DNA of 37,161 bases. Source: a virus. The notes below the pieces were generated by a model, which saw only the letters and a program-made list of their open reading frames with translations, was not told the origin of the DNA and did not search any database. The translations under genes were made by a program, and so were the position numbers. The DNA lies in the IMG/VR virus record IMGVR_UViG_3300042549_007453, positions 1 to 37,161 of that record, one strand, 5' to 3'. Below are positions 6,098-25,161 of this stretch, in pieces (the stretch's first letter is position 1; each line of letters starts with the position of its first letter).

Positions 6098-7261
6098 ATG
6101 AGCAATACCCTCACTCTCACCGCCCTCACGGAAAACATCTTCCGAGCCAAAGACATCATCGCCCGTGAGCCCACGGGATTCATCCAGTCCGTTCTGGTGA
6201 ACTCCGGCTCCGAAGGCGTTTCCATCAACGGCACCGTCCTCAGCCATGTCACCGCTGAGCCGACGCTGAACACGTCCTACACGCCCGCGATGACCATCCC
6301 GGCTGCCGACGATCAGACCGTCACCACGGAAAGCATGACCATCGGCCAGGTCGCCAACGTCCGCGTTCCGCTCACCGGCGAGGCCCTCCGCCAGCTCGGC
6401 AACACCGCAGGCCAGAAGGTCATCGACGACATGATGGTCCAGGCCATCCGCAAGATCGTCAACACCATCGAATCCCATTGCGGCTCGGTGATCTACAAAG
6501 GCAGCTCCCGCGCCGTCGGCACCGCAGGCACCACGCCCTTCGGCTCCACCATCGCCATCCTCGCTGATCTCCGCCAGATCCTCGAAGACAACGGCACACC
6601 GATGAGCGATGGCGAACTCTCCACCATCATCTCCACCAGCGCAGGCACCAAGCTCCGCCAGATCGCCAACCTCTACAAGGCAAACGAAGCTGGCAGTGAC
6701 GCCCTCCTCCGCCGTGGTGAGTTGCTGAATCTGATGGGCCTCTCCATCAAGGCCTCCGCTGGCATCGCCTCGCACACGAAGGGCGCAGGCACCGGCTACG
6801 ACTTCAGCGGCTCCGAAGCCATCGGCCAGACCACCCTCGGCTTTGAAGGCGGCACCGTCAACTCCACCGGCATCAAGGCTGGCGACATCATCGCACTGGA
6901 CACCGACACGGCGAACAAATACGTCGTCAAGACCGGCAGCACCGCCACCTCCGGCGACATCGTCATCAACAACCCCGGCCTCCGTGTCGCTGGCACCACG
7001 TCCTCCGAGATCACCCTCGGCGACTCCTACACCGCCAACCTCGCCTTCCATCGCTCCGCCGTCGAGCTGGTCATGCGCCCCCCTGCAATGCCGTATGGTG
7101 GAGACTCCGCCTCCGACCGCATGACCATCGTGGACGACGTCACCGGCCTCGTCTTCGAGGTGGCCCTCTACAAAGGCTACGGCATGAACATGCTCGACTT
7201 CACCTGCCTCTACCAGGCCAAGGTCTGGAAGTCGGACTTCGTCGCCACACTCCTCGGCTAA
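6098..7261 (+). CDS. major capsid protein, P22 coat family
   Basis: A 387-residue coat protein. It follows the P22-like family order: an N-terminal DIIAREPTGFI motif (18-28), the MTIGQVANVRVPLTGEALRQL region, the YKGSSRAVGTAGTTPFGS motif (about 133-150), the NEAGSDALLRRGE motif (about 197-209), and the C-terminal NLAFHRSAVELVMRPP and DDVTGLVFEVALYKGYGM segments. It forms the HK97-fold shell. TTGACA lies at 6064-6069, 28 nt before the ATG. A strong terminator follows the gene, as is usual for a coat gene that ends a highly expressed unit. Combination with a GpA terminase and lambda-type portal is mosaic relative to both P22 and lambda. Confidence 0.9.
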   Translation: MSNTLTLTALTENIFRAKDIIAREPTGFIQSVLVNSGSEGVSINGTVLSHVTAEPTLNTSYTPAMTIPAADDQTVTTESMTIGQVANVRVPLTGEALRQLGNTAGQKVIDDMMVQAIRKIVNTIESHCGSVIYKGSSRAVGTAGTTPFGSTIAILADLRQILEDNGTPMSDGELSTIISTSAGTKLRQIANLYKANEAGSDALLRRGELLNLMGLSIKASAGIASHTKGAGTGYDFSGSEAIGQTTLGFEGGTVNSTGIKAGDIIALDTDTANKYVVKTGSTATSGDIVINNPGLRVAGTTSSEITLGDSYTANLAFHRSAVELVMRPPAMPYGGDSASDRMTIVDDVTGLVFEVALYKGYGMNMLDFTCLYQAKVWKSDFVATLLG

Positions 7262-8754: not shown

Positions 8755-9240
8755 ATGACCATGAAAAACCTCCTCGCCCTCCTTCTCGCCCTCATCGCCA
8801 GCATCGCCCCCGCTGCCGATCTCAGCATCACCACCACCAGCTTCGTCCCTGGGGCCAACGCCAAAAAGCAGATCGGCACCGCCGGTGCTGCCATCACCAT
8901 CGGCCAGCTCCTCTACTACGACAGCACCGCAGGCACATGGAAGCTCGCCGATGCCAATGCCTCCGCCACCACCGCCGCCGTCGTCGCCATCGCAGCCAGT
9001 GCCGCCGCCTCCGGCCAGCCCGTCATCTACATCACCGAGGATGACGACCTCACATTAGGAGCCACCCTCTCCATGTCCGCCCCCGTTTATGCACTCAGCG
9101 GCACCGCAGGCGGCATCGCCCCCAGCGCAGACATCACCACCGGCTGGTATCCCTGCCCCGTGTTCGTCGCCAAAAGCACCACCAAATGCATCTTCAAAGC
9201 CTCCGCCCTCCGAGGCACCGCCGCCGCCGTCGCTCCTTAA
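8755..9240 (+). CDS. exported decoration-like protein with signal peptide
   Basis: A 161-residue protein. The N-terminus (MTMKNLLALLLALIASIAPAA) is a textbook Sec signal peptide with an Ala-x-Ala end near residue 21; the true start may be the second ATG at 8761. The mature part repeats a short beta pattern (GAAITIGQLLYYDSTAGTWK, then GQPVIYI and SAPVYALSGTAGGIAPSAD) like the DUF2190 capsid decoration proteins, in which small beta turns bind the capsid. TTGACA at 8738-8743 precedes the start. A signal peptide on a virion protein is odd; it may instead be secreted by the host cell. Two Cys (CPVF, KCIF) could form a disulphide after export. Confidence 0.65.
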   Translation: MTMKNLLALLLALIASIAPAADLSITTTSFVPGANAKKQIGTAGAAITIGQLLYYDSTAGTWKLADANASATTAAVVAIAASAAASGQPVIYITEDDDLTLGATLSMSAPVYALSGTAGGIAPSADITTGWYPCPVFVAKSTTKCIFKASALRGTAAAVAP

Positions 9241-9288
9241 ACTGCATCCCGTGTTAGGCCTCCTCCACATCCTCCACTCCCCACTCCC

Positions 9289-9735
9289 ATGCCCTTCGAC
9301 CCCCTCCAGACACAAGGCACCCTCCCAGCCTACGACCTCAAAGAGTTCGACGACACCGGCCTCCTCGTCACCGACTGCTCTTTCACGCCCCGCGTGAACA
9401 TCAAAGAGAAGGAAGGCCACAGCAACGGAGCCACCGGCAACAACGGCTCATACGCCCAGATCGTCCAAGTCCAGACCTACAAGAAGGCCCTCGACATCGA
9501 ACTCAAAGGCGAGATCGTCCCCGACTCCAACGGCCTCGCCGCAGGCCTCGCCGCCGTCTATCCCGGCCAGGCCGTTACCTGTGCCCAGTTCGCCGCCTCC
9601 GGCGTCACCATCCACGGCTTCAGCCGCGATGCCGCCAAGCTCCTCATGGTGAAAGAAGTGAAGCGTGAGACCTCCTCCGAAAAGGTCCCCGTCGTCACCG
9701 TCCCCATGTCCTACTACCCCGAGATCGCGGTCTAA
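9289..9735 (+). CDS. tail tube protein candidate
   Basis: A 148-residue, beta-rich, Val/Lys-rich protein (AQIVQVQTYKKALDIELKGEIV) without signal peptide. It sits where lambda gpV lies, before the G/GT chaperone genes and tape measure, and its size is normal for short tail tube subunits. The leader lacks a Shine-Dalgarno sequence; the preceding stretch is CT-rich. The assignment is positional. Confidence 0.5.
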   Translation: MPFDPLQTQGTLPAYDLKEFDDTGLLVTDCSFTPRVNIKEKEGHSNGATGNNGSYAQIVQVQTYKKALDIELKGEIVPDSNGLAAGLAAVYPGQAVTCAQFAASGVTIHGFSRDAAKLLMVKEVKRETSSEKVPVVTVPMSYYPEIAV

Positions 9736-9744
9736 CCACCGCCC

Positions 9745-10620
9745 ATGCAATCCGCGCCCCCAGCCAATGGGGGCGCGGGCCATCTCCCCGCCGATCCCCT
9801 CATGTCCCCAGACAGCCCCAACCAAGTCGCCGTCAGCAACACCAAGCTCGCCGCCTGTCTCATCGCCCTCGGCTTCAAATTCAAAGCCGACCTCATCCAG
9901 AGCAGCAAAGCCGGAGCCAAGCTCCACACGCAATTCTTGTTCAGCGGCCCCAGCCTCCGCTCGCAGTATCAGCACATCACGCTTGACTGCGCCCAGCTCT
10001 GGGAAAAAGGCACGCTCGATCACAAAGAGCCCATGCATCCCCTCTGCGTCATGATGCGCGGCCAGCATAACTACGACCGCCTCATGGATTGGCAGATGCG
10101 CGGCATCACCCATCACCTCCGCAGCACCGCCGCAGGCCAGATGCTCATCTATCGCGCAGGCACCGTCAAAGACTGGTCCGGCATCCAGCACCACACCTCC
10201 TCCGACCTCGCCCTTTGTGCCGCCCTCGCAGGCTGCGGCATCCCCGTCATCCGCATCACCGGTTCGGCAGGTGCCCACCTCTACACCTTCCCGGCCATGG
10301 GTTACGCCCTCCTGCGCGCCGATCTCACCACCCACCTCGAAGCCGCCAACCTCCTCACCCGCCGCGCCCCTACCCCCACCGATCCCCGCCGCCTGCATCT
10401 CGAGGATACCGCCCCCCTCCACCCCATGGTGCAGGTCTATGACGCCCTGAACTGCCGAGCCCACCTCAAGCGCGCCCTCCTCAGCACCAGACCCCTCCTC
10501 CTCATCGAAGAAGAAGGCACCACCCGCCAAGCCCTCCTCAGCATGAACAGCACCGGACGCGTCATGCAACGCGTCGAAGCCCACTTCAAATCCCCGCCGA
10601 TCCCATGGACCCAACCCTAG
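9745..10620 (+). CDS. hypothetical tail-region protein
   Basis: A 291-residue protein (or 272 if it starts at ATG 9802, which avoids the hairpin at 9752-9778 and a low-complexity N-terminus). The conserved-looking part starts at about SNTKLAACLIALGF. It is rich in His and Leu (QHITLDCAQLW, ITHHLRSTAAGQ) and is not similar to a fold I know. It lies between tail tube and the tail chaperones and overlaps the next gene by 16 nt. No lambda gene sits here, so it is an accessory of this phage type. Could be non-structural. Confidence 0.65.
   Translation: MQSAPPANGGAGHLPADPLMSPDSPNQVAVSNTKLAACLIALGFKFKADLIQSSKAGAKLHTQFLFSGPSLRSQYQHITLDCAQLWEKGTLDHKEPMHPLCVMMRGQHNYDRLMDWQMRGITHHLRSTAAGQMLIYRAGTVKDWSGIQHHTSSDLALCAALAGCGIPVIRITGSAGAHLYTFPAMGYALLRADLTTHLEAANLLTRRAPTPTDPRRLHLEDTAPLHPMVQVYDALNCRAHLKRALLSTRPLLLIEEEGTTRQALLSMNSTGRVMQRVEAHFKSPPIPWTQP
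9752..9778 (+). other. 10-bp perfect hairpin near a gene start
   Basis: CCGCGCCCCC (9752-9761) pairs with GGGGGCGCGG (9769-9778) over a 7-nt loop. It has no T tract. It lies between ATG 9745 and the next in-frame ATG 9802, so it would either be coding or mask the first start. Confidence 0.6.
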
Positions 10621-11105
10621 CACCCCCAGACACCGCCCCCGAAGCCGCTGCCGACCAGCTCCGCCAGCAAGCCTGGCACACCGCCGACTCCCACGCATGG
10701 GCAGGCATCCCCCTCCAGCCCTGGAGCCGCCAGCGTGAAAGTCTTTTTGTTCGCCTCATCGAGCACGACGAGACCACCACCGGCCTCGACTCTCTACCCC
10801 TCCTCACCGCCCGCCTCGCCGAAAAAGAAAGCCCCGTCACCATCGAGACCCTCCTCTCCCCCATGCTCTTCATTGAGCAGGCCTCTTTGGTGCTTTTCCT
10901 CGCCGCCCACACCCCGAACCAATGGGATCACCTCAGAGGCCGCCCCGCCGCCTTCCTCCGTGCCGCCAATGAATGGGCCGAGAAGCACATCCCCGCCGGA
11001 GACGAATGGCCCGCCATCCACCTCGCCGTTTTACTCCGCACCCAGCACCACGCCGTCATCCCCATGCGACCCGCTTCCCGTGCAGGAGGCCCCTCGGGAA
11101 ACTAG
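10605..11105 (+). CDS. tail assembly chaperone, short form (gpG-like)
   Basis: A 166-residue, mostly helical, zero-frame product upstream of the tape measure gene. It ends in Ser-Gly-Asn-stop, where the last codons GGA AAC TAG make the slippery sequence G GGA AAC (11096-11102). This location and size fit the lambda gpG role of binding the tape measure protein during tail assembly. The start overlaps the previous gene (ATG 10605 within its 3' end). No sequence motif identifies G proteins, so the support is the frameshift signal and order. Confidence 0.8.
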   Translation: MDPTLAPPDTAPEAAADQLRQQAWHTADSHAWAGIPLQPWSRQRESLFVRLIEHDETTTGLDSLPLLTARLAEKESPVTIETLLSPMLFIEQASLVLFLAAHTPNQWDHLRGRPAAFLRAANEWAEKHIPAGDEWPAIHLAVLLRTQHHAVIPMRPASRAGGPSGN

Positions 11106-11350
11106 CACTGCCCGTCTCCGAGGCGCAATACTACGCCCTCCTGAGTCGGGCCTACCACGGCACCACCACCCGCCATGAAATGCGCTGGGAAATCTCCCTC
11201 ACCGAAGGCTGGTCCATCATCCACGCCGCCGGACTCCTCGCAGGCGAAACCTACATCTGGCCCGACCCCAAGCTCTCCACCTCGGGCCGCCTCCTCCTCC
11301 GCGTGAATGAACTCCGCCAATCACCCACCCCCATCACCCTCGACCTCTGA
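10605..11350 (+). CDS. tail assembly chaperone, -1 frameshift fusion (gpGT-like)
   Basis: A slip by -1 at GGGAAAC changes the reading from GGA-AAC-stop to GGG-AAA-CTA and continues to the stop at 11348-11350. It adds 82 residues (beginning LALPVSEAQYYALL) to give 248 residues in all. The downstream frame has no credible start of its own (its only ATG, at 10973, lies deep inside the other gene in a Pro/Arg-rich shadow). AGGAGG at 11084-11089, 6 nt before the slippery heptamer, resembles the internal Shine-Dalgarno stimulator of dnaX frameshifting. Lambda uses GGGAAAG at the same place. Seen: heptamer, phase, stop. Known: function in lambda. Inferred: efficiency. Confidence 0.88.
11084..11105 (+). 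promoter_or_regulatory. -1 programmed frameshift site with upstream Shine-Dalgarno-like stimulator
   Basis: AGGAGG (11084-11089), six spacer bases, then the heptamer GGGAAAC (11096-11102) in the phase G GGA AAC, followed at once by the zero-frame stop TAG (11103-11105). This is the canonical X XXY YYZ arrangement. Confidence 0.88.
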
Positions 11351-11393
11351 GAACGAAGAACTGAGCCGACCGCCGACTAACCACTAAAGACGT

Positions 11394-11594
11394 ATGAAGA
11401 CCAATAAAGCATCATCGAAGAAACAAGCCACCGCAGGCCGAAAGCCCAGGCGGTTGGCTCCTGTGTCTGGTTCTCAGTTCTTATCCCGACCAACTTTCCA
11501 GATAGCCTCGGCGAAGCCGGAAAAAGCCACTTTTGACACGGCCCCCTCGGCAACACCCACGCCGATCCCATGTCCACCGATGGCCTCACCCTGA
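11394..11594 (+). CDS. doubtful small basic protein
   Basis: A 66-residue reading frame whose first 20 residues are Lys/Arg-rich (MKTNKASSKKQ...RKPRR). It is preceded by CCACTAAAGA (11381-11390), the same 10-mer found before the Clp N-domain gene, which also has a Lys-rich N-terminus. The second half covers an inverted GAGAAC element (11472-11481), a TTGACA (11533-11538), and overlaps the next gene by 25 nt, so its C-terminus is not convincing. It may be a remnant of a small inserted gene. Confidence 0.3.
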   Translation: MKTNKASSKKQATAGRKPRRLAPVSGSQFLSRPTFQIASAKPEKATFDTAPSATPTPIPCPPMASP

Positions 11595-12373
11595 ACAGCG
11601 CACCTTTTGAGGCGGCGATTGTCAGGCTTGCAGCCACCTCCAAGAAAGCCGCCTCCGCCGTCATGAAGGACCAGGCTCGGCTTTTGTTCGTCGAAGTCGC
11701 CAAGATCACTCCGCCCTACTCCGGCGGCACCACAGGCAGGCAGGCAGAGAAGCAGGGCCGCACCGCCGTCGCCCGCGACATCTACGGGATCTATGGCACC
11801 CGCAGCGATGCCTACACCGCCATCGCCGCCAGCAACGTCCCGGCAGCGAATGCCTTCTGGTCTCAGCTCGGACAAGGCAACACTGAACTCGCCAGCAGCA
11901 TCCTCCGCGATGTCACCGGCAAAAGCCTCTCCCCGTTCGATAATGGCGCGCTTCATGAGCGCACCTCGGCCGGCTCCCGCCGCCGCACCCGCCGAGCCAA
12001 TGCCGCCACCCGCAACGCCCGCAGCTTCGTCTTCTTCGTCTCCAATGCCGAGGCCCTCGCCGCCTATGTAAACGAAAAGCAAGCCCACGTCTGGTGGCTT
12101 GCCTCCGGCTGGGCAGATCCCCTCCGCGCCCTGGGTGCCAAGCTCCCCTATGGCGTCGGTAAGTTCGATGCACCCGGCAAGCTCAAGGTCACCATCACCG
12201 ACCAGCGCATCGAGATCACGATGACGAACCAAGTCTCCTATGGCCGCGACGTGCGCGACATCCAGCGTCGCATTGACTTCGCCATGAATAAGCGGGTCGG
12301 AGCCCTCGACCGCCGCTGGGAATCCTACCTCAACCGAGCCGCCAAAGACGCCGGTTTCTCCAAGACACTCTAA
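11570..12373 (+). CDS. minor tail protein
   Basis: A 267-residue protein just upstream of the tape measure. The N-terminal helical stretch (AAIVRLAATSKKAASAVMKDQARLLFVEVAKITPPYSG) resembles the start of HK97 gp10/lambda gpZ-like tail completion proteins, in which a helix pair precedes a PP-x-x-GG/TG loop. A basic patch (SRRRTRRANAATRNARS, about 136-152) and a C-terminal helical RDIQRRIDFAMNKR region follow. TTGACA lies 31 nt upstream. The protein probably belongs to the tail, but its position after the chaperones rather than before the tube is unlike lambda gpZ. Confidence 0.55.
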   Translation: MSTDGLTLNSAPFEAAIVRLAATSKKAASAVMKDQARLLFVEVAKITPPYSGGTTGRQAEKQGRTAVARDIYGIYGTRSDAYTAIAASNVPAANAFWSQLGQGNTELASSILRDVTGKSLSPFDNGALHERTSAGSRRRTRRANAATRNARSFVFFVSNAEALAAYVNEKQAHVWWLASGWADPLRALGAKLPYGVGKFDAPGKLKVTITDQRIEITMTNQVSYGRDVRDIQRRIDFAMNKRVGALDRRWESYLNRAAKDAGFSKTL

Positions 12374-12376
12374 CTC

Positions 12377-14317
12377 ATGTCAGCCAATCTCGAAGCCTCC
12401 CTCCGGCTGGACATCGCCCAATACCAGCAGCAGCTCGCCAAAGCCAAAGGCGAAGCCAAGAAACTTCGAACCGACCTCCAGTCCCAGGGCGGATTCGGCA
12501 AAGCCTTCACCGGCCTCGGCGGCCAGATCGCAGGCATCGCCGGAGCCGCAGGCTTCGGACTCCTCGTCAAACGCGGCCTTGAGTTTAACCAAACCATTGG
12601 CGACTCCGAGACCGCCATCGCCCAAGTCCTCCGCCAGTTCAAAGGACTCAGCACTGAAGCCGCCAAAGGCGAAGCCGCTGCCGCCATGCAGGCCATGGTG
12701 GACCTGGAGCCCAGCACCGCCGCCAGCCTCACCGGCCTCGTCGATGGCTTCCTCGCCACCCTCGGCAGCTCCCAGGCCGTCGGCATCGACGTCGCCCAAA
12801 ACATCGACCTCGTCGGCAAGTTCGCCAACGCGATGGCCAACGCCAAGATCCCCGCCGAGCAGCTCGCCCAAGAGATGCGCTCCATCGTGAGCGGGAACAT
12901 TGGAGCCGACTCCACCCTCGCCAAAGTCCTCAGCATCTCCAATGCCGACATCGAGAAAGCCCGCCAAGCAGGCACCCTCTACGACTTCCTCGTCGGCAAG
13001 ATCGGCACCCTCGGCGAAGCCGGAGACACCGCAGGCGTCGCCTTCTCCACCCTCTCCTCGGCCATGGATAAAGCCGCCGGACTCCTCACTGAAGGCCTCT
13101 TCGCTGAAGGTGTCCAAGGTGCCAAGGAGATGGCGACTTTCCTCGAACAAAACGCCGACCTCTTCCGCGACCTCGGCCAAGGCATCGCCTTCGCCACGAA
13201 AGAATCCATTAAGCTCCTCGCCGAGCTGAACAACATCCGCAACTCCCTCACCCAGGGCACCGGCGAAGGCATCGGCAAACTCCTCGGACTCGACCCCACC
13301 GGCGGCACCGTCGCCAAGACGAACAAAGAAGCCAGCGATCAAGCCGCCGCCGCCGATGCCGCCGCCCGCTTCGGTCCCGCCAAGCAGTTCGATGCCGATG
13401 GCAAAGAGATCGTCAAAAAAGACGCTACCACGCCCGAGAAAAAACCCGGCACTCCCGGCACCTCCGCCCCCGACGCCAAAGCCCTCATCGAAGCCCACCG
13501 CGAGATCGCCCGCCTCCAGCAGCAGGAAGCCTCCCTCAACCAAAAGCGATTCGACGACTACCTCTCCATCCTCCCGCCCAACCTCAAGCTCATCGAGATC
13601 AAGCGTGAAGTCCTCCGCCTCGAAAACGAAATGGACACCGTCGCCTCCTCCAGCATTGGCGAAGGTAAGATCCGCATCCAGACCGAGCTTCTCGACCTTG
13701 CCAAACAAACCCGCACCGCCGAGGCCGACATCGCCGATGAAAAGAAGCGCGCCGCCGACGAAGCCGCTGACGACCTCAAAGAGGCCCAAGAGAAAGCCGC
13801 CCTCCAGGCCGATGCCATCGCCGCCTTCGATGCCGAGATGGCCCTCATCAATGCCAAGCTCACCGGCAACAAAGAACTCACCGCTGAACTCGAACGCCAG
13901 GCCGCCATCGAGCAGGAGAAAAACCGCCTCATCGCCGCCGGAGTCACCGAGGCCGATGCTGCCGACAAGGCCGCCCAGATCGTCGATGCCCGCCAGTCCC
14001 TCATGGACAAGCCCACCGGCACCGATGGCAAGATCAAAGGTTATTCCCGCGAGCGCCAAGGCGGAGCCGATGAAGCCCGCCAGCGCGCCGAAGACCGCGT
14101 CAAGCAATCCCGCAGCCGCCGAGAAGCCGCCGTCACCGACGCCTTCGGCACCGTCCGCCCATCGGGCACCGATGCCGCCGGGAAAAACCCCCTCGCCGCC
14201 GCCGCGCAAAAGAACGCCGCCGCCGAAGGTGCCACGCCGCAGGACACCAATGCCGCCGCCGCCCAGATCGTCACCCAGATGCTTCCCCAGATCGTCTCCA
14301 TCCTCTCCGGCTCATGA
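12377..14317 (+). CDS. tail tape measure protein
   Basis: A 646-residue protein, the longest helical one in the tail module. The N-terminal LEASLRLDIAQYQQQLAKAKGEAKKLRTDL coiled region, a hydrophobic Gly/Ala stretch (GGQIAGIAGAAGFGLLVKRGLEF, about 46-68), a long helical middle (tape measure domain AQVLRQFKGLSTEAAKGEAAAAMQ), and a charged coiled coil (about 370-560, IADEKKRAADEAADDLKEAQE) all fit. By the usual 0.15 nm per residue rule the tail would be about 97 nm. It follows the G/GT genes closely and overlaps the next gene by 4 nt. Confidence 0.88.
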   Translation: MSANLEASLRLDIAQYQQQLAKAKGEAKKLRTDLQSQGGFGKAFTGLGGQIAGIAGAAGFGLLVKRGLEFNQTIGDSETAIAQVLRQFKGLSTEAAKGEAAAAMQAMVDLEPSTAASLTGLVDGFLATLGSSQAVGIDVAQNIDLVGKFANAMANAKIPAEQLAQEMRSIVSGNIGADSTLAKVLSISNADIEKARQAGTLYDFLVGKIGTLGEAGDTAGVAFSTLSSAMDKAAGLLTEGLFAEGVQGAKEMATFLEQNADLFRDLGQGIAFATKESIKLLAELNNIRNSLTQGTGEGIGKLLGLDPTGGTVAKTNKEASDQAAAADAAARFGPAKQFDADGKEIVKKDATTPEKKPGTPGTSAPDAKALIEAHREIARLQQQEASLNQKRFDDYLSILPPNLKLIEIKREVLRLENEMDTVASSSIGEGKIRIQTELLDLAKQTRTAEADIADEKKRAADEAADDLKEAQEKAALQADAIAAFDAEMALINAKLTGNKELTAELERQAAIEQEKNRLIAAGVTEADAADKAAQIVDARQSLMDKPTGTDGKIKGYSRERQGGADEARQRAEDRVKQSRSRREAAVTDAFGTVRPSGTDAAGKNPLAAAAQKNAAAEGATPQDTNAAAAQIVTQMLPQIVSILSGS

Positions 14318-15192
14318 TTCCTGACTTTTCCATCTACGGGCTGAAAAACTTCGAGATCACTGGTCGCAAGATCACCTCCTCCCCGCGTAAGCTCGACACC
14401 GCCAGCGTCTCCTGGCAGACCGATCGAGAAGATGCCTTTTCCCGTGGCGGTCCACTCCCCGGCTACCCGTATATGTCCATCGTCGAGTGCGAGACCCTCG
14501 TCGAGATCCCAGGCCATGCCTACCAGCACAACCTTCGCGGTGAAGGCCTCCTCCGCCCCGGTCACAAGCTCGAATCCTCCAGCCTCAAGCAACCCGAGGA
14601 AGGCTGGGACGAAGGCCCCCAGACCTGGCTCACCACCGACCCCTCCGCCTTCGCCATCGGCAACGTCCATCCCGACATCGCCACCCTCTGGTGTGTCGGC
14701 ATCGACAGCAAAGACCAGGTCACCGATCGCGTCTGGCGCGTCTCGCCCAGCTATCGCGGCATCATCCCAGACTCGGCAGGGGACCCTAAGCCCGGCAAGT
14801 GGAAAGGCACTGTCAACGGCGAGACACGGCAGGCCGGATCTCTGTCCCTCGTCGGCACCACCTTCGTCGATGAAAACGGCGTCTATAACGGCTGGTCCAC
14901 CGCCCGCGATTCCACGCTCGATACCAGCAAGGTCGCCGTCACCCACAGCCTCCTCAGCTTCACCGCACCGCCGACGGACAAGGTAGGCCGCCCCTACACT
15001 CCAGCCCGCGTCCCGCTGCTGGATAACATCTTCGAAACGACCTCGTGGTATTCGTCCGCCGGTTTCACCTGGAACTGGCCGCCCGGCTGGAAACTCAGCG
15101 GCGTCCAGTGGGATCAGATCCTCGATAAAGACATCTACCTCTACACCCTCACTCATGAGTATGTGCCGAAGGCCGAACCAAAGCTAACCTAA
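14314..15192 (+). CDS. minor tail protein, distal tail region
   Basis: A 292-residue protein starting in an ATGA overlap with the tape measure gene. It is rich in Trp and beta-prone, with an N-terminus (IYGLKNFEITGRKITSS) and a C-terminal TWNWPPGWKLSGVQWDQILDKD segment. Genes directly after the tape measure usually encode the distal tail or tail-tip proteins. No fold recognised from sequence. It overlaps the next gene by 1 nt. Confidence 0.6.
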   Translation: MIPDFSIYGLKNFEITGRKITSSPRKLDTASVSWQTDREDAFSRGGPLPGYPYMSIVECETLVEIPGHAYQHNLRGEGLLRPGHKLESSSLKQPEEGWDEGPQTWLTTDPSAFAIGNVHPDIATLWCVGIDSKDQVTDRVWRVSPSYRGIIPDSAGDPKPGKWKGTVNGETRQAGSLSLVGTTFVDENGVYNGWSTARDSTLDTSKVAVTHSLLSFTAPPTDKVGRPYTPARVPLLDNIFETTSWYSSAGFTWNWPPGWKLSGVQWDQILDKDIYLYTLTHEYVPKAEPKLT

Positions 15193-15602
15193 TGCGCCGC
15201 AGCTCCAGACCTCCGAAGCCCGAGCCCTTCGCCTGGCGAAAGAGCAACGGCGTCATGCTGCAAAGCCATCTGCGCGAATACATCCGCTGGCTCTTTCCGC
15301 AGCTCGGCAGGCACTACATCCCGCCCGGCGGCGTGCGTGACTACACCGCCGCCGCCCAGCCTGCGAAGGCCGAGAAACAGCCCGAGCCCTTCCGCCCTCG
15401 TTCGTCCTCCGGTCCCGTCCTGCTCACCGATCTCCAGCGCTTCAAAGACTACGTCTTCGCCGCCCTGGAGCCCGTCGCTAGCCAGAACCCCATGCCACTG
15501 AAGACAAGCTGCACCCTCATCTTCATCCCCGATTTCAAGCGGCTGCATGAGCACATCCAGCTCCTCCTGAAACTCCACCGCCGCCGCCTCTCGAACTCAT
15601 GA
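15192..15602 (+). CDS. hypothetical tail protein
   Basis: A 136-residue basic protein with Pro-rich patches and a Lys/Arg/His-rich C-terminal helix (RLHEHIQLLLKLHRRRLSNS). The start overlaps the preceding stop by one base; its end overlaps the next gene. No family recognised. The position suggests a tail-tip assembly factor. Confidence 0.6.
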   Translation: MRRSSRPPKPEPFAWRKSNGVMLQSHLREYIRWLFPQLGRHYIPPGGVRDYTAAAQPAKAEKQPEPFRPRSSSGPVLLTDLQRFKDYVFAALEPVASQNPMPLKTSCTLIFIPDFKRLHEHIQLLLKLHRRRLSNS

Positions 15603-15931
15603 CCCCGAACACAGCCCACATCCTGCACCTCTTCGGCTTCGAGCAGATCGCCCCAGATCGGAAGCGCGCGGATACTACGCGCTGGCACTACTCCAAGACT
15701 GCCGCCAACGTCCTCATCGACCTCCCCGAAGACGCCACCTCCCATGACATCCGCGAGGCTCTGGTGGCCTACGGTGCCGCCTGTGCCCGCGCCGAAACCC
15801 GCGAGCAATACAAGCGCTTCCTCCTCACCTTCGGCATCTCCCCCACCGACGACAACCTCCCGCCCTTCCTGTTAGACCCCGAAGGCGCTCCCCTCATCGA
15901 GCCCTCTGAAACAGAGAACCGAGAACCATAA
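15599..15931 (+). CDS. hypothetical tail protein with repeat-encoded C-terminus
   Basis: A 110-residue protein. The last residues (ETENREP) are encoded by the CAGAGAACCGAGAACC tract, so the intergenic heptad repeat has run into the coding end and supplies the stop. N-terminal part is globular (TAHILHLFGFEQIAPD, VLIDLPEDATSHDIREAL). No function recognised; gene order puts it in the tail tip. Confidence 0.6.
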   Translation: MTPNTAHILHLFGFEQIAPDRKRADTTRWHYSKTAANVLIDLPEDATSHDIREALVAYGAACARAETREQYKRFLLTFGISPTDDNLPPFLLDPEGAPLIEPSETENREP

Positions 15932-15940
15932 ACCGAGAAC
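15911..15940 (+). repeat. GAGAACC heptad tract before fibre-base gene
   Basis: ACAGAGAACCGAGAACC, then ATAAACCGAGAAC, covers the 3' end of the previous gene and the leader of the gene at 15950. It is followed by TTCCCCGCC and ATG, nearly the same tail as at 16928 and 3375. Confidence 0.7.
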
Positions 15941-15949
15941 TTCCCCGCC

Positions 15950-16888
15950 ATGCTCCTCATCCTTGATCGCAAACACCAGCTCCTCGTCCTCTCCGAGGGC
16001 ATGCTCTCCCCCCAGACCTTCATCGAAGGCCGCCGGGGCGATGGCGAAAACATCGAACTCGTCTTCCTCGACGACGGTGCCGCCGTCACCCCCACCGGCC
16101 TCGAAGAGTTCCGCTTCGTCGCCAAGCCTCAAAATGAAGACTGGGACAGCGCCGCCCATGCCCTCGCCTCCACCTGGGTCCGCAACACCAGCACAGGCCG
16201 CTATCAGGCCCGCGTGAACTACAACACCACGCTCCTGAATGCCCTGCTCAAGATCGCCCATGCCACCGAACGTGAAAACACCTTCATCGACCTCGATGCG
16301 CAGCTCGCCTGGCGCACCTCCAACACCACCACCTGGTGGCGCACCCAGCGAGTCACCTTCCGGCTGCACAACAGCGTCTGGCGCGGCAATGAGACCGACC
16401 CCACCAGCGGCACCGCCGAAGAGTCCATCGCCAGCGCCGCCAAGTCCCCACAGTTCCTCGTCATCGACGCCGATGTCGTGAACGACAACGCTACGCTGAA
16501 CACTCTCGAAGACATCACCGATCTCGAATTTCCAGTGCAAAGCGGGGCACGGTATCACTTCCGGTTCACCATCCCCTACACCTCGGCATCCACCGGCACA
16601 GGCTCCCGCTTCACCATCTCCGGCCCGTCCTCACCCACCTTCCTAGCCTACCGCAGCGAGGTCACGCTAAACGCTGCCGCACGCACGCTGAACGAAGGCC
16701 TCGGAGCCTACGACCTCCCCGCCGCCTGCAATGCGAACAGCCTCACCACCGGCAACATCGCCATCATCGAAGGCTTCATCCGCCCGTCCGCCGATGGCAC
16801 CGTCACGGCCCGCTTCGCCTCCGAAGTCGCGAACTCCGCCATCACCGTCAAAGCCGGTGCCTGTGTCCAATTCACCAAGCTGGACTAA
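15950..16888 (+). CDS. fibre-base protein with BppU-like N-domain and receptor-like C-domain
   Basis: A 312-residue protein. Residues 1-150 resemble the N-terminal domain of the proteins at 16928 and 18756 (an Ig-like/BppU-like fold: a beta pattern with ...ENIELVFLDDGA, later FIDLDAQLAW and a closing TQRVTFRLHNSV strand). Residues about 190-312 form a compact beta domain (VQSGARYHFRFTIPYTSASTGTGSRF, ending AITVKAGACVQFTKLD) of a kind seen at the C-termini of phage fibres, likely a trimeric tip. Such proteins attach fibres to the tail end and contact the cell. The N-domain identity is from my comparison by eye. Confidence 0.6.
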   Translation: MLLILDRKHQLLVLSEGMLSPQTFIEGRRGDGENIELVFLDDGAAVTPTGLEEFRFVAKPQNEDWDSAAHALASTWVRNTSTGRYQARVNYNTTLLNALLKIAHATERENTFIDLDAQLAWRTSNTTTWWRTQRVTFRLHNSVWRGNETDPTSGTAEESIASAAKSPQFLVIDADVVNDNATLNTLEDITDLEFPVQSGARYHFRFTIPYTSASTGTGSRFTISGPSSPTFLAYRSEVTLNAAARTLNEGLGAYDLPAACNANSLTTGNIAIIEGFIRPSADGTVTARFASEVANSAITVKAGACVQFTKLD

Positions 16889-16920
16889 CCGAGAACAGAA
16901 AACAGAGAACCGAGAACAAC
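16888..16920 (+). repeat. GAGAACC/GAGAACA tract before collagen-like fibre gene
   Basis: CCGAGAACAGAAAACAGAGAACCGAGAAC follows the stop of the previous gene and is followed by AACTTCCGCC and the ATG at 16928. It is a degenerate copy of the heptad leader at 3343 and 15911. Confidence 0.7.
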
Positions 16921-16927
16921 TTCCGCC

Positions 16928-18727
16928 ATGACCATTCCTCTCTACATCGCCCGCGATCGCGGCAACCAAGTCTTTGACTCAAACAACCAGGCAGCCCTCA
17001 CTCCCTGGAATCTCCTCCAGCGTGGCACCGTCACCGTGGTCTGCGCCTTTGGGTCGGCAGGTGTGATCAGCGCGCTCAACCCCACCACTGCCCGAATCGT
17101 CATCAAGGAGGCGGCCAGCGGTGACGTTCTGATCACGGATGACACCCCAGCCTCCAGCGGCAGCGGAGCCACCAGCCGCCAGTCCTTCTCTTTCGTGGTC
17201 GATGGGGCCGATCTCCGCACCGCCCTTGGCACCTCGGAGAGCATCGACCTCGTCGCTCAGCTCGAATGGGTGATCTCTTCCGTCACCTACCTTTCCACGC
17301 CCATCCCCGTCACCGTCACCGCCGCCATCGCCGGTGATGCCGATGGCATCCCCGATACAGCACAAGACGCAGGCTTTGCCCGTCTCGCTTCCATGCTCGT
17401 GGCAGGCGATGCCGTGACGCTCGATGAGGACGGCGTCGCCCGAACCATCACCATCTCCGTCGATCCCGGCGGTGCGCTCTCTGCCGACGACGGCTGGTCT
17501 CCCCTCATCCGCTCCGCCACTGACAGCGCCCGACGCGTGATGGAAATCTACGATTGGACCGGCGGCACCGGCACCAAGCCCGCCACCGGCTACATCTCCA
17601 CCACCGGCCTCACCGCCACCATTGGCGATGCCATGGACTTCCGAGGCGTCCAGGGCATCCAAGGCCCAGCAGGCGAGACCGGCCCCACCGGAGCCACAGG
17701 TGCCACCGGAGCCGATGGCGCTCCCGGTGGTCCTCAGGGTGATCCTGGCTCCACCGGCGATAAAGGCTGGAGCCCCAAGCTGGTTATCGGGAATGATGGA
17801 GACCGCCGCGTCCTGAACATTGTCGGATGGGTAGGGGGTGAAGGCAGCGCGCCCTCGACCGGCCAATACATCGGAGAAAGCGACCTCGTGAACACCGCCG
17901 CCGAGGCCGTGGACATCCGAGGAAGCACGGGTGCTCCTGGAGCCGATGGCCTGCAAGTCATCAACGAAAACGTCTTCTACGTCGATCCCGTGAATGGCAA
18001 CGACGGCACCGCCGTCATGGGCCGTCCGTCCTTGCCATGGGCCACGCTCGATGCCGTCTGGGCTGAAATCCTCACCCTCGCTGAGGATTGCACCCTGATC
18101 CTCGCTGGAGCCTGCGATCACGGCACTCTCACCCTCGCCTCTGCCATGTCCACTGGCTATGATGTCACCATCATCGGACGTGGCGAGATGAGCAGCACCA
18201 TGACCATCGTCGCCACCGGCACCGCAGGCAGCGCAGGCAATGGCAGCCAAGATCCGAGCCCTAACGCCTACGATGGCGGCAACGGCTACAAGGTCCGACT
18301 CTTCGGCAATAAGACCGTCACCCTCACCAGCGTCACCACCACCGGCGGTGTTGGCGGTGCTATGACTGACAGCGGAGCCGTGGGCGGCGTCTATGCAGGC
18401 GGAGGCGGCGCCGGTGGTGACATCCTGCTCAAAGGCTTCCGCGTCGGCACCATCACCGCCAGCGGTGGAGCAGGCGGAGCCGCCACCGGCACCGGCAGCA
18501 CCGGCGGCCCTGGTGGCAACGTCGCCGCCAACGTCAAGCTCATCGACTGCGAAGTCACCGGCACCCTCACCCACAGCGCCGGAGCCGGAGGCACCGGAGT
18601 CGGCAGCAACGGAGCCGCAGGCAGCGGAGCCGGGAACATCAAAACCTGGAACACCCGCAAGAGCACCGTCACCACCACCGGCACCGAGACGCATACCAAC
18701 GTGCTCACCACGCCGGATGCTTTGTAA
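16928..18727 (+). CDS. collagen-like tail fibre protein
   Basis: A 599-residue protein. Residues about 1-140 are a BppU-like N-domain. Two copies of a roughly 55-residue module follow (start GWSPLIRS near 187 and GWSPKLVI near 279), each with GWSP...RRV...WxGGxGxxPxTGxYI...DxRG. Each copy leads into Gly-X-Y collagen triplets (about 238-277, and a short RGSTGAPGADG near 331). The C-terminal part (about 345-599) contains a beta-helix-like region ending in Gly-rich strands (GGAGGAATGTGSTGGPGG). Collagen-like and beta-helical shafts are usual in phage fibres that reach the receptor. The GAGAACC leader lies directly upstream. Confidence 0.78.
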   Translation: MTIPLYIARDRGNQVFDSNNQAALTPWNLLQRGTVTVVCAFGSAGVISALNPTTARIVIKEAASGDVLITDDTPASSGSGATSRQSFSFVVDGADLRTALGTSESIDLVAQLEWVISSVTYLSTPIPVTVTAAIAGDADGIPDTAQDAGFARLASMLVAGDAVTLDEDGVARTITISVDPGGALSADDGWSPLIRSATDSARRVMEIYDWTGGTGTKPATGYISTTGLTATIGDAMDFRGVQGIQGPAGETGPTGATGATGADGAPGGPQGDPGSTGDKGWSPKLVIGNDGDRRVLNIVGWVGGEGSAPSTGQYIGESDLVNTAAEAVDIRGSTGAPGADGLQVINENVFYVDPVNGNDGTAVMGRPSLPWATLDAVWAEILTLAEDCTLILAGACDHGTLTLASAMSTGYDVTIIGRGEMSSTMTIVATGTAGSAGNGSQDPSPNAYDGGNGYKVRLFGNKTVTLTSVTTTGGVGGAMTDSGAVGGVYAGGGGAGGDILLKGFRVGTITASGGAGGAATGTGSTGGPGGNVAANVKLIDCEVTGTLTHSAGAGGTGVGSNGAAGSGAGNIKTWNTRKSTVTTTGTETHTNVLTTPDAL

Positions 18728-18755
18728 CGGGATGTTTTGACACGGTGCCGTCGTC

Positions 18756-19376
18756 GTGACCGGCACCGTCTTCCTCAACACCTCCACCCTCGTCGCCCGC
18801 TCGGCCATCACCGGCAATGCCCTGCCGGTGATCTCGGCGAAGCTCCAGGCCGCGCTCACCCTGACGGTCAAGTTCTTCGCCACCGGAGAAGCCGCCGCCC
18901 TGCTCTCCTCCCCGACCTTCCGCGTCACGCTGAAGGCCACGCCCACCGGCGACCCCTTCGTCTTCACCAGCTCCGTCGCTGAGGAGCTGGCGGACGGCTA
19001 CACCTTCGAGTTTTCGAGCGTCGATTCCGCCGCCCTCCGCACCGCCATCGGCGATCTCACCCAGCTCGATGCCTTCGGTGAAGTCGAGTGGACCGTCGCC
19101 AGCGTCGTCGAGCGCGTGAGCTTCCCCGTTACCATCGTCAACGCCTACATCCGCAGTGGCGACGACGCCCCTGATCCCATCGCCGATGAATCCCTCGCCT
19201 GGCTCGACGATCACGGTGTCCGCTTCGATGCCGCCCAGACCCTGACCGCCGCCCAGGCAGCTCAAGCTCTGGCAAACCAAAAGGTCACCTTCACCTCCGC
19301 TGGGTATCTCCGCCTCGTGAATGCAGCCGGTGATGTCTTCCACATCGCCCTGAATAGCGGCGAGCCTCCTGCCTAG
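18756..19376 (+). CDS. fibre-base protein, paralogue of the collagen-like fibre N-domain
   Basis: A 206-residue protein starting at GTG 18756, 13 nt after TTGACA (18737-18742). Its middle (SAALRTAIGDLTQLDAFGEVEW..., then VSFPVTIVNAYIRSGDD) aligns by eye with ADLRTALGTSESIDLVAQLEW and STPIPVTVTAAIAGDAD of the collagen-like fibre. It thus looks like a duplicated N-domain with a short C-terminal tip (KVTFTSAGYLRLVNAAGDVF). Could attach the next fibre to the tail. Seen: the similarity. Inferred: role. Confidence 0.6.
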   Translation: MTGTVFLNTSTLVARSAITGNALPVISAKLQAALTLTVKFFATGEAAALLSSPTFRVTLKATPTGDPFVFTSSVAEELADGYTFEFSSVDSAALRTAIGDLTQLDAFGEVEWTVASVVERVSFPVTIVNAYIRSGDDAPDPIADESLAWLDDHGVRFDAAQTLTAAQAAQALANQKVTFTSAGYLRLVNAAGDVFHIALNSGEPPA

Positions 19377-19382
19377 CCTCCC

Positions 19383-21497
19383 ATGAAAACCCTCCGCACC
19401 GCCATCCATCTCACCTCCTGGGCCATCGTCATCGCCCTCGTCCTGCTCGTCCAAAGCGTCCGCGCCCAAACCGCTAACCAATGGTATTTCCAAAAGAAAA
19501 ACACCGGAGCAGGCTTCGCCGGCTACGGTGTCACCCCCATCGCAGGCCGCGCCTTCGGTCTCGATGGCTCCGGCAACCCGGCCATGATCTCAGTCTCCGG
19601 TGGTAGCGGTCTCGAAAACATCCTCAGCTCCATCACCGGCGACACCCTCACCTTCACCGGCACCCTCACCGCGCCCCGAGCCATCGCCTGGCGGGACCTC
19701 GCTGGCACCGTAGCTTTAACGAGCGACCTCTCCGCCTACCTCACCACCTCCACGGCCTCCAGCACCTACGCCCCGCTGGCATCCCCCACCTTCACCGGCA
19801 CCGTCACGATTCCCAGCGGTGCCAGCATCTCCGGCTATGCTACGACTGCCGCTGTGGCGAGCGGATACCAGCCACTTGACGGCAATCTCACCGGCATTGC
19901 AGCCGCCGCCAGTGCCGCTGGCGTGCTGACAGACAACGGATCATCATCCTACTCTTACACAGCAACTAGCACCGGCGGAAATGGAAGCGCAGACAGCGGG
20001 AAAATCCCCAAACTAAACGCACGAGGAGGTTTGAATTTGGGCGGCAGCGCTGGCTCTGGCAATGTGCTTGAGGTCATTTCCAGCACTAGCTCTTTCGCCA
20101 TTGAAGCAACAAACTCAACTTCGGGCGGAACGGCTATTCATGCGACACCAAACGGCACGAGTGTATCAAGTTTTGGAACCCATTTAACCGCCGCCTCACA
20201 AATCGCTTTTGAAATTGATGGCAGCCTCGGAACAAGCAGCAGCACAGGCATTTTCAGTTATATGCCAGGACCTGCGCTCATCGCTGCGGATGATAACTTT
20301 GCCGAGCAGGTCAGCATCTGGGGCACAGGGAGGAAGGTCCGCTTCACCGCAGAAAGTGCACGCGCAGCCTCTTACATCGACCTGACCAGTGCCACTCCAA
20401 CAGGGGCACGCACCATCACCCTGCCAGATGCATCAGGCACTGTTTCCCTGCTCGGCTCCAGCATCGACCTAACCACCGAAGTCACGGGCATCTTGCCACC
20501 GGCAAACATGGGCACGGGCTCCAGCATCAGCACGAAGTACCTGCGTGGTGATGGCACTTGGCAGGCCATCTCAGGCGGTGGGGATGCCCTCACCAGTGGC
20601 ACGCTCGCCCAGTTCGCCGCCACTACCTCCGCCCAGCTTCGAGGTGTGCTGAGCGATGAAAACGGCACCGGCGAGTTTCTCACCACCAATGGTTCGGCGG
20701 CATCCTTGACCAGCTTCCCGACCCTCAACCAATCCACCACCGGCAATGCCGCCACCGCCACCGCCCTGCAAACAGGCCGAACCATCAACGGCACCACCTT
20801 TGACGGCACCGCCAACATCACCGTCACCGCCGCCGCTGGCACTCTCACAGGCACCACGCTCGCCAGTGGTGTCACCGCCTCCAGTCTCACCAGCCTCGGC
20901 ACCATCGCCACCGGCGTTTGGCAGGGAACGGCCATCGCGGACAGTTACATTTCGAGCGCCTCGACTTGGAATGCCAAGGAGGCCGCCCTCACCTTCAGCA
21001 CTGGCCTCACGAGATCGACGAACACGATCACCGTCAACACGAGTCAGAACATCGCCACCCTCTCTAACCTAACCACGAACGGCATTTTGACCACCACGGG
21101 AAGTGCTGGCACCCTGACTGTTGATACCACCACAAAGCCCAAGGCGGAGGCCGCCGAGATCGGTGTCGCCATCTCGGACGAGACAACGGCCATCACCACC
21201 GGCACCGCCAAGATCACCTTCCGAATGCCCTTCTCCCTGACCGTGACAGCCGTGCGCCTTAGCCTGACCACCGTGAGCAGCTCCGGCACACCGACCGTGG
21301 ACATCAACGAAGCTGGCACCACGATCCTCAGCACGAAGCTCTCCTGCGATGCCTCCGAGAAAACATCCACCACCGCCGCGACCGCTGCGGTAATCTCCGA
21401 CTCCGCCCTCGCCGACGATGCTGAGATCACCATCGACGTTGATACCGCAGGCACCGGCGCGACCGGCGCAAAAGTTTGGATCATTGGCACCCGCTAA
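19383..21497 (+). CDS. long tail fibre with Sec signal peptide
   Basis: A 704-residue protein. Residues 1-29 are a signal peptide (basic MKTLR, hydrophobic core WAIVIALVLLVQ, SVRA-QT end). The rest is built of beta repeats known from phage fibres: SPTFTGTVTIPSG, NAATATALQTGRTINGTTFDGT, and SSLTSLGTIATGVWQGTAIADSYI, and a C-terminal all-beta domain. Bases 19930-20460 (residues about 183-360) are less GC-rich than the flanks, as if exchanged by recombination. Fibres with this repeat style are receptor-binding. A signal peptide on such a protein is unusual; it might be exported to the envelope of the infected cell or be an annotation of a hydrophobic anchor to the tail. Ends 2 nt before the next gene. 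Confidence 0.8.
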   Translation: MKTLRTAIHLTSWAIVIALVLLVQSVRAQTANQWYFQKKNTGAGFAGYGVTPIAGRAFGLDGSGNPAMISVSGGSGLENILSSITGDTLTFTGTLTAPRAIAWRDLAGTVALTSDLSAYLTTSTASSTYAPLASPTFTGTVTIPSGASISGYATTAAVASGYQPLDGNLTGIAAAASAAGVLTDNGSSSYSYTATSTGGNGSADSGKIPKLNARGGLNLGGSAGSGNVLEVISSTSSFAIEATNSTSGGTAIHATPNGTSVSSFGTHLTAASQIAFEIDGSLGTSSSTGIFSYMPGPALIAADDNFAEQVSIWGTGRKVRFTAESARAASYIDLTSATPTGARTITLPDASGTVSLLGSSIDLTTEVTGILPPANMGTGSSISTKYLRGDGTWQAISGGGDALTSGTLAQFAATTSAQLRGVLSDENGTGEFLTTNGSAASLTSFPTLNQSTTGNAATATALQTGRTINGTTFDGTANITVTAAAGTLTGTTLASGVTASSLTSLGTIATGVWQGTAIADSYISSASTWNAKEAALTFSTGLTRSTNTITVNTSQNIATLSNLTTNGILTTTGSAGTLTVDTTTKPKAEAAEIGVAISDETTAITTGTAKITFRMPFSLTVTAVRLSLTTVSSSGTPTVDINEAGTTILSTKLSCDASEKTSTTAATAAVISDSALADDAEITIDVDTAGTGATGAKVWIIGTR

Positions 21498-21499
21498 CC

Positions 21500-22195
21500 A
21501 TGAAGCTCTTCCTTCTTTCCATCGCCTGCCTCTACCTCGGCACCGCCCACGCCGTCGCAGGCTTCATCCTCAACCCCTACCGCTTCGCCACCGCAGGCAG
21601 CAGCTTTCTGGTGGACGAGGGCTTCGAGGGCACTGGCTACGAAGAAACATGGACCGAGGCAGGCACGGGCACCATCGACGAAGACCACACCGGCACCGTC
21701 ATCGCAGGCAGCCAGTCCCTTCAGATCAACCTGTCCGCCCAAACCGGCTCCACCGCTGTCACCTTCACCGCGCAAGGCTCGCTCTTCACCAAGTTTCGTT
21801 TCCGTGTTGCCAGCACCAGCAGCAACCCAACGGTTGCCACGATCCGCAATGGCAGCACCATCCTTGGCAGCTTGATTCTCGTCGGCGTCAACCGCACCAT
21901 GCGCACCAACGCCGCTGGCGGATCGAATGCCTCATCCTCGGCGACTCTGCCGCTCAACACTGATATTTACATCTGGCTAGAATACGTCAAAGGCAGCGGA
22001 TCGAATGCCATCTGCCGGGCTGGCTGGGCCACCACGGATAGCAAGCCCGCCCTCACCAGCACAGGCACACAGACCTGCCTGAGCAGCAACGGCACCAGCA
22101 CCTCCGATGCCGATACCTTCTACATCGGTCACACCGTCAGCGGCACCTACGAGTGCTTCTACGACGCCGTCCAAGTAGCCGCCTCTGCCTTCTAA
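21500..22195 (+). CDS. exported lectin-like protein
   Basis: A 231-residue protein starting at ATG 21500, two bases after the previous stop; an upstream TTG at 21476 would only add residues encoded inside the previous gene. Residues 1-18 are a signal peptide (MKLFLLSIACLYLGTAHA). The mature part has a concanavalin/LamG-like jelly-roll pattern: VDEGFEGTGYEETWTEAG, SLQINLSAQTGS, SLFTKFRFRVAS, IYIWLEYVKGSG, and a terminal ECFYDAVQV. Such domains bind carbohydrates. Its location at the end of the fibre genes suggests a host-range or surface protein. Whether it enters the virion is not known. Confidence 0.6.
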   Translation: MKLFLLSIACLYLGTAHAVAGFILNPYRFATAGSSFLVDEGFEGTGYEETWTEAGTGTIDEDHTGTVIAGSQSLQINLSAQTGSTAVTFTAQGSLFTKFRFRVASTSSNPTVATIRNGSTILGSLILVGVNRTMRTNAAGGSNASSSATLPLNTDIYIWLEYVKGSGSNAICRAGWATTDSKPALTSTGTQTCLSSNGTSTSDADTFYIGHTVSGTYECFYDAVQVAASAF

Positions 22196-22208: not shown

Positions 22209-22637
22209 ATGCCCGCCGCTGAATCCGCCATCTCCCTCGTCGTCGCCGCCGCTGTCGGCATGTTCGCCGCCGCCGCTGCTGCCGTTCTCCCCACACCCGA
22301 CCCCGCTGCCGTGGCATCCGTCATGGATGACGCTCGCCTCCGCCTCATCTGCGTGGCTGGCAGCCTCGGCGGAGCCGTCCTTAGCGTCGGCCTCTTCAAG
22401 ATTAATCACGTGCGTGACATGGCCGTGAAGCTCGTTTGCTCCTCCTTTGCGGGCATCCTCTTCTCCCCGATGGCGCTCCGATGGTTAGGCTGGAGCCGCG
22501 ACCTCGACGCCGTCCTCGCCGTCTCCGGCCTCACCGCTCTTATGAGCTGGACCGTGCTCCAGATGGCCGTCCCCGCCGTCACCCGCGCCGCCGCCCGCAA
22601 GCTCGACTCCCAAGTCACCGAGAAGCTGAAGCTGTGA
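22209..22637 (+). CDS. holin-like membrane protein
   Basis: A 142-residue protein with three or four hydrophobic segments (about 5-27, 46-63, 75-90, 103-122) and a short charged C-terminus (KLDSQVTEKLKL). It opens the lysis block that ends in the endolysin. Holins of several classes have this size and build. The first in-frame ATG 13 nt after the previous stop is used. Confidence 0.6.
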   Translation: MPAAESAISLVVAAAVGMFAAAAAAVLPTPDPAAVASVMDDARLRLICVAGSLGGAVLSVGLFKINHVRDMAVKLVCSSFAGILFSPMALRWLGWSRDLDAVLAVSGLTALMSWTVLQMAVPAVTRAAARKLDSQVTEKLKL

Positions 22638-22662
22638 CGATTGACAGAGCCGCCGAGTTGTT

Positions 22663-22890
22663 ATGAGCACACGCACCCGACTTCTCAACCTTCTCGCCCT
22701 TCTGGGCATCCTCGGCTTCATGTTCGGAGCCGTCTCCTGCACCGGTCCGACCACGGACAAATACACCGCCACCACCGGCATCACCCCCGGCCAGACCGCT
22801 CTCCTCGCTGGCAAATGGTGGCTCGACTACGAGCAGGCCAAAGCCGCCAATCGAATCCCGCAGGCCCTCCCCATCACGTCCTCCAAGTAG
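22663..22890 (+). CDS. small lipoprotein, Rz1/spanin-like
   Basis: A 75-residue protein with a basic N-terminus (MSTRTR), a hydrophobic core, and a lipobox-like GAVSC with Cys near residue 26, then a Pro/Thr-rich mature part. The -3 residue is Ala rather than Leu, so the lipobox is not perfect. Placed between two membrane proteins and the endolysin, it fits a spanin outer-membrane lipoprotein, which fuses the membranes at lysis in Gram-negative hosts. TTGACA (22641-22646) lies 16 nt before the ATG. No Rz partner with a long coiled coil is visible, so it might act with 22209 or 22913. Confidence 0.55.
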   Translation: MSTRTRLLNLLALLGILGFMFGAVSCTGPTTDKYTATTGITPGQTALLAGKWWLDYEQAKAANRIPQALPITSSK

Positions 22891-22912
22891 TTAGGCAGCC
22901 CCAAGCCCTCAA

Positions 22913-23170: not shown

Positions 23171-23201
23171 GACTATCCAACCCGCCAGCAGCACGCCTCC
23201 G

Positions 23202-23233
23202 AGCCCCTGCCAGAAGTTCTGGCAGGGGCTTTC
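23202..23233 (+). terminator. rho-independent terminator, 12-bp stem
   Basis: AGCCCCTGCCAG (23202-23213) pairs with CTGGCAGGGGCT (23219-23230) over AAGTT and is followed by a short T run. It separates the holin candidate from the endolysin gene, which therefore may need read-through or its own promoter (TTGACA at 23236). Confidence 0.82.
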
Positions 23234-23254
23234 CATTGACAGCCACGCCGAGGA

Positions 23255-23994: not shown

Positions 23995-24017
23995 GACGGC
24001 TCGCGAGTGTTGAGGGT

Positions 24018-25139: not shown

Positions 25140-25161
25140 GTTCTCGTTTCGCTGTTCTCAG

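Follow-up and report, generated by a model that had tools for sequence, protein, structure and literature searches.

Conserved predicted signal peptides on decoration, fibre and lectin-like proteins of an uncultured tailed-phage group

Introduction

The assembly of tailed phages is regarded as a cytoplasmic process. One review (PMC7602432) describes no signal peptide for the decoration (cement) proteins lambda gpD and P21 SHP or for those of TW1, Sf11, YSD1 and HFTV1, and neither 'signal peptide' nor 'periplasm' occurs anywhere in its text. When purified, the decoration proteins of T5 (PMC5292684) and L/P22 (PMC7602432) can bind finished capsids in vitro. The paper on phage P8625 reports no signal peptides in any protein (PMC4642752), and a search of the open-access literature turned up no account of signal peptides occurring systematically on the virion proteins of tailed phages, a null result that is weak evidence.

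Here we analyse the record of an uncultured virus, 37,161 bases in length and referred to in its entirety as the window. The original prediction held that three virion-class proteins, encoded from positions 8755, 19383 and 21500, have clear N-terminal signal peptides, that their export would be unusual, and that they might be displayed on the lysogen, exclude other phages or mature in the periplasm.

Results

Gene order and relatives

The gene order of the window is that of a temperate siphovirus. Some of the following labels were assigned by position and by eye.

807: terminase
3375: portal-like gene
5032: ClpP-type prohead protease
6098..7261, + strand: major capsid protein, ordinary form (phrog_283, E = 3.1e-61)
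12377: probable tape measure
15950-19376: fibre-like genes
22209-23818: lysis genes
24009: integrase

The terminase is 35% identical to that of Akkermansia phage Moulinsart, its best match in the phage collection, and the integrase is also related to that of Moulinsart. P8625 and Moulinsart, both cultured phages of Verrucomicrobiota, have a portal and a ClpP-type protease related to those of the window; unlike the window's, the structural proteins of these two phages carry no signal peptides. The capsid protein is nearest to those of proteobacterial phages. GTDB genome scans with the capsid protein and with a terminase alignment found no relative, and a plasmid search with a fibre gave no match. 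Sequence relationships suggest a large, uncultured group of tailed phages, the hosts of which probably belong to Verrucomicrobiota.

Predicted signal peptides in the structural region

Three genes encode the proteins under study, listed here with their predicted leaders.

8755..9240, + strand: capsid decoration (cement) protein, 161 aa, with predicted signal peptide (assigned by Phage_cement_2, fold and homologues)
8755..8814, + strand: its signal peptide, MTMKNLLALLLALIASIAPA; predicted cut before ADLSIT; score 8.25
19383..21497, + strand: long fibre, 704 aa, with predicted signal peptide (local PHROG tail-fibre match)
19383..19466, + strand: its signal peptide, MKTLRTAIHLTSWAIVIALVLLVQSVRA, 28 residues ending in VRA; predicted cut before QTANQ; score 6.87
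21159..21494, + strand: C-terminal domain of the fibre, residues 593-704, common to signal-less fibres of other phages
21500..22195, + strand: lectin-like protein, 231 aa, with predicted signal peptide (same-slot relatives match Laminin_G_3)
21500..21553, + strand: its signal peptide, MKLFLLSIACLYLGTAHA, followed by VAGFIL; score 7.6

Signals were scored with our own heuristic script, which considers n-region charge, the h-region and an AxA c-region. The leaders of 8755, 19383 and 21500 score 8.3, 6.9 and 7.6, compared with 5.4-8.8 for twelve textbook E. coli signal peptides, on a scale on which about 3% of shuffled N-termini reach at least 5. When the N-terminus of each protein was shuffled 3000 times, its score was reached twice for 8755, 22 times for 19383 and twice for 21500. 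By this heuristic, all three have a positive n-region, a hydrophobic core, small residues at −3 and −1 and a cleavable site, and they are predicted to be textbook substrates of Sec and signal peptidase I. Between 115 and 22195, the structural region, the scorer picks out no further gene call; the portal, terminase, protease, tape measure and other tail genes are without a signal. In the lysis cassette downstream, the gene at 22663 scores as a lipoprotein-type signal and that at 22913 gives a weak score (4.9).

Chance is better excluded by the homologues, because signal character is kept in 22 distinct decoration homologues and 20 distinct fibre N-termini despite their differing letters. Scores, shuffles and homologue comparison together confirm the three signal peptides that had been predicted, and the phenomenon is much wider than first noted. 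It is very unlikely that the leaders are an artefact of misassigned starts, or hydrophobic N-termini that have no export function. Although the scorer is heuristic and passes some shuffled N-termini, such a reading is opposed by retention in more than 20 divergent homologues, by exact junctions and by the involvement of three gene types. Moreover, of 534 genes around signal-less cements, only 5 pass a filter of 200 aa or more and a score of 6 or higher, and these comprise a lipoprotein, a capsid protein with a hairpin and three fibres that bear signals. The homologue comparison thus appears, in the main, to refute an artefact.

The decoration protein and its family

The product of 8755 matches Pfam Phage_cement_2 (PF09956) with 22.4 bits, under the gathering cut-off of 24, so its class membership rests on fold and position. 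In an AlphaFold model (34 homologues, mean pLDDT 83), the leader forms a helix, residues 16-20 make up a link of low confidence, and a beta domain is predicted well. A Foldseek comparison of the model with the PDB placed first proteins from the capsid structures of Sf11, YSD1, HFTV1, Adjutor and TW1, and then P21 SHP and lambda gpD; its best hits, with E = 2.9e-4 and a TM of about 0.5, are decoration proteins from such structures. The modelled fold and the gene position indicate that 8755 is a capsid decoration protein, and the earlier description 'decoration-like' finds support in the weak Phage_cement_2 match and in the fold match to the decoration proteins of Sf11, YSD1, HFTV1, TW1, P21 and lambda. 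Members of this set, Phage_cement_2 included, are also like 8755 in size and in following the capsid gene within the head module. In 8755, the domain is preceded by a leader that is predicted to be cleavable.

The homologues of 8755 divide sharply in two. Twenty-two distinct sequences carry a signal peptide of 18-26 residues, whereas about 43 are signal-less and start with 'MAD[LI]SIT', 'M-AD[ILV]...' or something very similar. The shared alignment of the family starts precisely at the predicted junction, between A and AD[LIV] (residue 21 in 8755), so that the cleaved protein would equal a signal-less relative's protein after removal of Met. The −1 residue is Ala at 21 of the 22 signal-bearing junctions. 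A misassigned start of 8755 was rejected because the junction lies exactly at the mature start of the family.

On a tree of the decoration family, the signal label takes four changes, a number as low as which arose in 0 of 500 label shuffles. A single change suffices in 0 of 200 bootstrap trees, signal-bearing sequences form two groups, and the well-supported branches alone force two label changes; gains and losses are indistinguishable on this tree. Seven pairs give dN/dS values of about 0.04-0.33 for the mature region, which is clearly under purifying selection, while the signal sequences diverge fast yet stay signals. The number of Cys residues does not track the signal in this family, so disulphides found no support as a reason for export.

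A further possibility is that export is inefficient, so that a cytoplasmic share of each protein builds virions while the exported share acts on the envelope. Such dual use would reconcile virion-type genes with export, and the signals do vary in strength. However, a decoration protein that stayed in the cytoplasm would keep the uncleaved leader at its N-terminus, and most signal-bearing cement genes contain no internal ATG, GTG or TTG able to give a leader-less form, for which reason a cytoplasmic product from an internal start was rejected. We consider dual use quite unlikely. A second cement gene was looked for in signal-bearing loci and none was found; two cement genes occur only in L166 and L193, and in both loci the two are signal-less.

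The fibre and the lectin-like protein

The fibre at 19383 has a local match to a PHROG tail fibre (E = 6e-4). Its C-terminal domain is found, without signals, in annotated tail and virion proteins of unrelated phages, which argues for a virion role of the fibre. Two N-terminal domain families, with 6 and 14 distinct members, occupy the fibre slot, the window fibre belonging to the smaller; a search for window-type N-terminal domains returned no additional contig. In all 20 distinct fibre N-termini the leader ends directly before a conserved Gln, while its letters vary widely between lineages. One of these 20, in L227, was missed by the scorer owing to a charged residue and was accepted by eye.

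Relatives in the slot of 21500 match Laminin_G_3 (E from 3.4e-19 to 8e-12), a kind of protein that, in other settings, is built into structural proteins of the virion. These relatives support the description 'lectin-like' for the gene position; the copy in the window has no Pfam match, and its predicted structure is too poor for use. L072-L075 retain the signal of 21500, and the L132, L169 and L240 contigs have one that differs in its letters.

Phage-encoded envelope proteins that block receptors exist, T5 Llp being an example. The exported proteins might likewise act on the host envelope rather than in virions: the fibre and lectin would mask receptors or glycans, thereby excluding phages or keeping progeny from adsorbing again, and a related surface role would have recruited the decoration protein. 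Real and selected signals are compatible with this proposal, and the fibre and lectin are likely receptor- or glycan-binding parts encoded beside the lysis genes, a common location of accessory genes. Yet it leaves unexplained the export of the sole decoration protein, which retains conserved family residues and purifying selection; the C-terminal domain of the window fibre serves signal-less virion fibres elsewhere; and no outer-membrane or surface anchor or sorting signal is seen in the exported proteins. An envelope function is, on balance, unlikely.

Other loci and membrane hairpins

We compared loci in which 9 kb or more follow the cement gene, counting as a partner any further signal-bearing gene of at least 200 aa in that downstream part. 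A partner is present in 9 of 14 loci with a signal-bearing cement versus 4 of 17 with a signal-less one, counts that are not independent because the loci are mutually related. The four positives in the latter class are three kin with signal-bearing fibres and one lipoprotein, and the five partnerless loci of the former include L102 and L159, whose contigs do carry a fibre leader. The trio of signal-bearing cement, fibre and lectin is also present in G001-G004, whose terminase and capsid genes are of a quite different kind. G038 encodes another head protein, phrog_1731, which is unrelated to the cement and bears a signal that ends exactly where its family starts. The signal call for L174:6955-8109 (protease-like) was not used, as its start may be wrong, and L154:5798-7168 was left out because it is capsid-like by position and length only, PHROGs giving just a local tail-fibre match.

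In L157, L243-L246/L012 and L159, the major capsid protein opens with 52-59 residues containing two hydrophobic segments that replace the Met, and in L168 a probable scaffold starts with a two-helix hydrophobic hairpin. These hairpins suggest membrane tethering of capsid or scaffold proteins in some relatives rather than simple storage. They are also what favours the possibility that the leaders in general are membrane anchors, with heads and fibres assembled at the inner membrane and the anchor removed on maturation. However, the leaders of cement, fibre and lectin are single and short and end in a signal-peptidase site; because they are predicted to be cleavable, their passengers would face the periplasm, the side opposite a hairpin-anchored capsid protein. 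Furthermore, comparison of the N-terminus of the window's capsid protein (6098..7261) with those of relatives reveals no extension and no hairpin. Membrane tethering may explain the hairpins of the relatives and not the cleavable signals, and as a general account of the leaders it is improbable.

Discussion

Taken together, these comparisons make it very likely that export of outer-shell proteins in this lineage is real and under selection. The sequences support signals that are genuine, exactly placed, retained by selection and borne by virion-type genes, with no second decoration copy apparent. The expectation that virion-class proteins are exported is thus strongly supported by sequence comparison, as is the unusual nature of that export. 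With regard to the roles originally offered, periplasmic maturation fits best; display on the lysogen and superinfection exclusion have no specific support and leave the exported sole decoration protein unexplained.

Purified decoration proteins can bind finished capsids, and the signals lie on outer, last-joining parts; the simplest reading is a periplasmic store. The decoration protein, the distal fibre and the lectin, being outermost and added last, would be made as Sec precursors and exported across the inner membrane, where host signal peptidase I would trim their leaders and give the decoration protein the N-terminus that its signal-less relatives have once Met is removed. Heads and tails would be built in the cytoplasm while the exported proteins wait in the periplasm. 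Once the cell is opened by holin and endolysin, completed particles would encounter the periplasmic pool and become decorated. The benefit might be that late parts are kept from unfinished particles, or that they mature in the periplasm, for example by formation of pyroglutamate at the +1 glutamine of the fibres. We infer the joining to virions, its timing at lysis and the benefit of export. A factor against storage is that some members do without an exported cement, since L138, L139 and L140 combine a signal-bearing fibre with a signal-less cement. A periplasmic store of outer, late virion parts that join particles at lysis is our best model, and one that we advance tentatively.

It is similarly conceivable, although we would not yet bet on it, that this lineage completes its virions outside the cytoplasm, with decoration proteins, fibres and lectins preloaded through Sec, some capsid or scaffold proteins located at the inner membrane, and assembly split over two compartments and ended at lysis.

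Cleavable signals that were repeatedly gained (or lost) and otherwise retained, exactly at the ordinary N-terminus, allow a test of whether a tailed phage can complete its assembly in a second compartment, and the signal-bearing and signal-less versions of one decoration protein provide a natural comparison. For annotation, the lesson is that a protein with a signal peptide may still belong to the virion.

Compared with described systems, the fibres are reminiscent of the Bacteroidetes Q-rule, in which Gln directly follows the signal peptide (PMC5837995). However, Q is absent from the cement and lectin junctions here, the host probably lies outside Bacteroidota, and the Q-rule paper makes no mention of phages or Verrucomicrobia. 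LamG/concanavalin-type virion proteins resemble the relatives of the lectin, and siphovirus tail fibres have a C-terminal domain in common with 19383; the LamG-type proteins and signal-less fibres that we fetched start without a leader, whereas 21500 and 19383 start with a predicted signal peptide. The coat proteins of filamentous phages, SAR endolysins, spanins and lysogenic-conversion proteins such as lambda Lom also use host Sec or membrane insertion. Those known exported phage proteins are membrane-assembled coats, lysis proteins and envelope proteins, whereas the candidates described here are decoration proteins and fibres of a tailed double-stranded DNA phage.

Hydrophobic N-terminal extensions on head proteins

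Comparison of N-termini among relatives revealed five major capsid proteins in which an extension of 52–59 residues, with two hydrophobic segments, takes the place of the start Met. These are encoded at the following relatives' loci:

L157:3648-4991, major capsid protein with extension
L244:1845-3185, major capsid protein with extension
L245:2410-3750, major capsid protein with extension
L012:6349-7683, major capsid protein with extension
L159:7155-8456, major capsid protein with extension

In L157, L244, L245 and L012, but not L159, codon 63 is ATG, and the proteins read NDISM versus NDISL. This codon is a possible internal start.

A hydrophobic N-terminal extension was also observed on the product of L168:6308-7003, probably a scaffold protein given its coiled coil and weak Phage_scaffold match. 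A second and unrelated head protein (phrog_1731; L233:3964-4620) bears a signal peptide that stops where the family profile starts.

Separately, one relative's contig (G023; 69,220 bases) carries two differing signal-bearing fibres of one family, at loci L221 and L142, separated by about 66 kb.

Lysis cassette and upstream motifs

The lysis cassette of the window contains a further signal-bearing product:

22663-22890, small protein bearing a signal of the lipoprotein type (..FGAVS|C)

This product is kept in relatives and is perhaps an outer spanin.

The window has 12 copies of TTGACA on the + strand and two on the − strand. A further two copies precede late-gene starts by 34–37 bases, in addition to seven that do so by 17–22 bases; the seven are at:

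2990, 5011, 7638, 8738, 18737, 22641 and 23236, TTGACA

GC skew switches near 23.9 kb, from about −0.3 to +0.3 (1-24000 versus 24001-37161), even though called genes lie mostly on the + strand on both sides.

In relatives, TTGACA was likewise observed upstream of cement (capsid decoration protein) gene starts.
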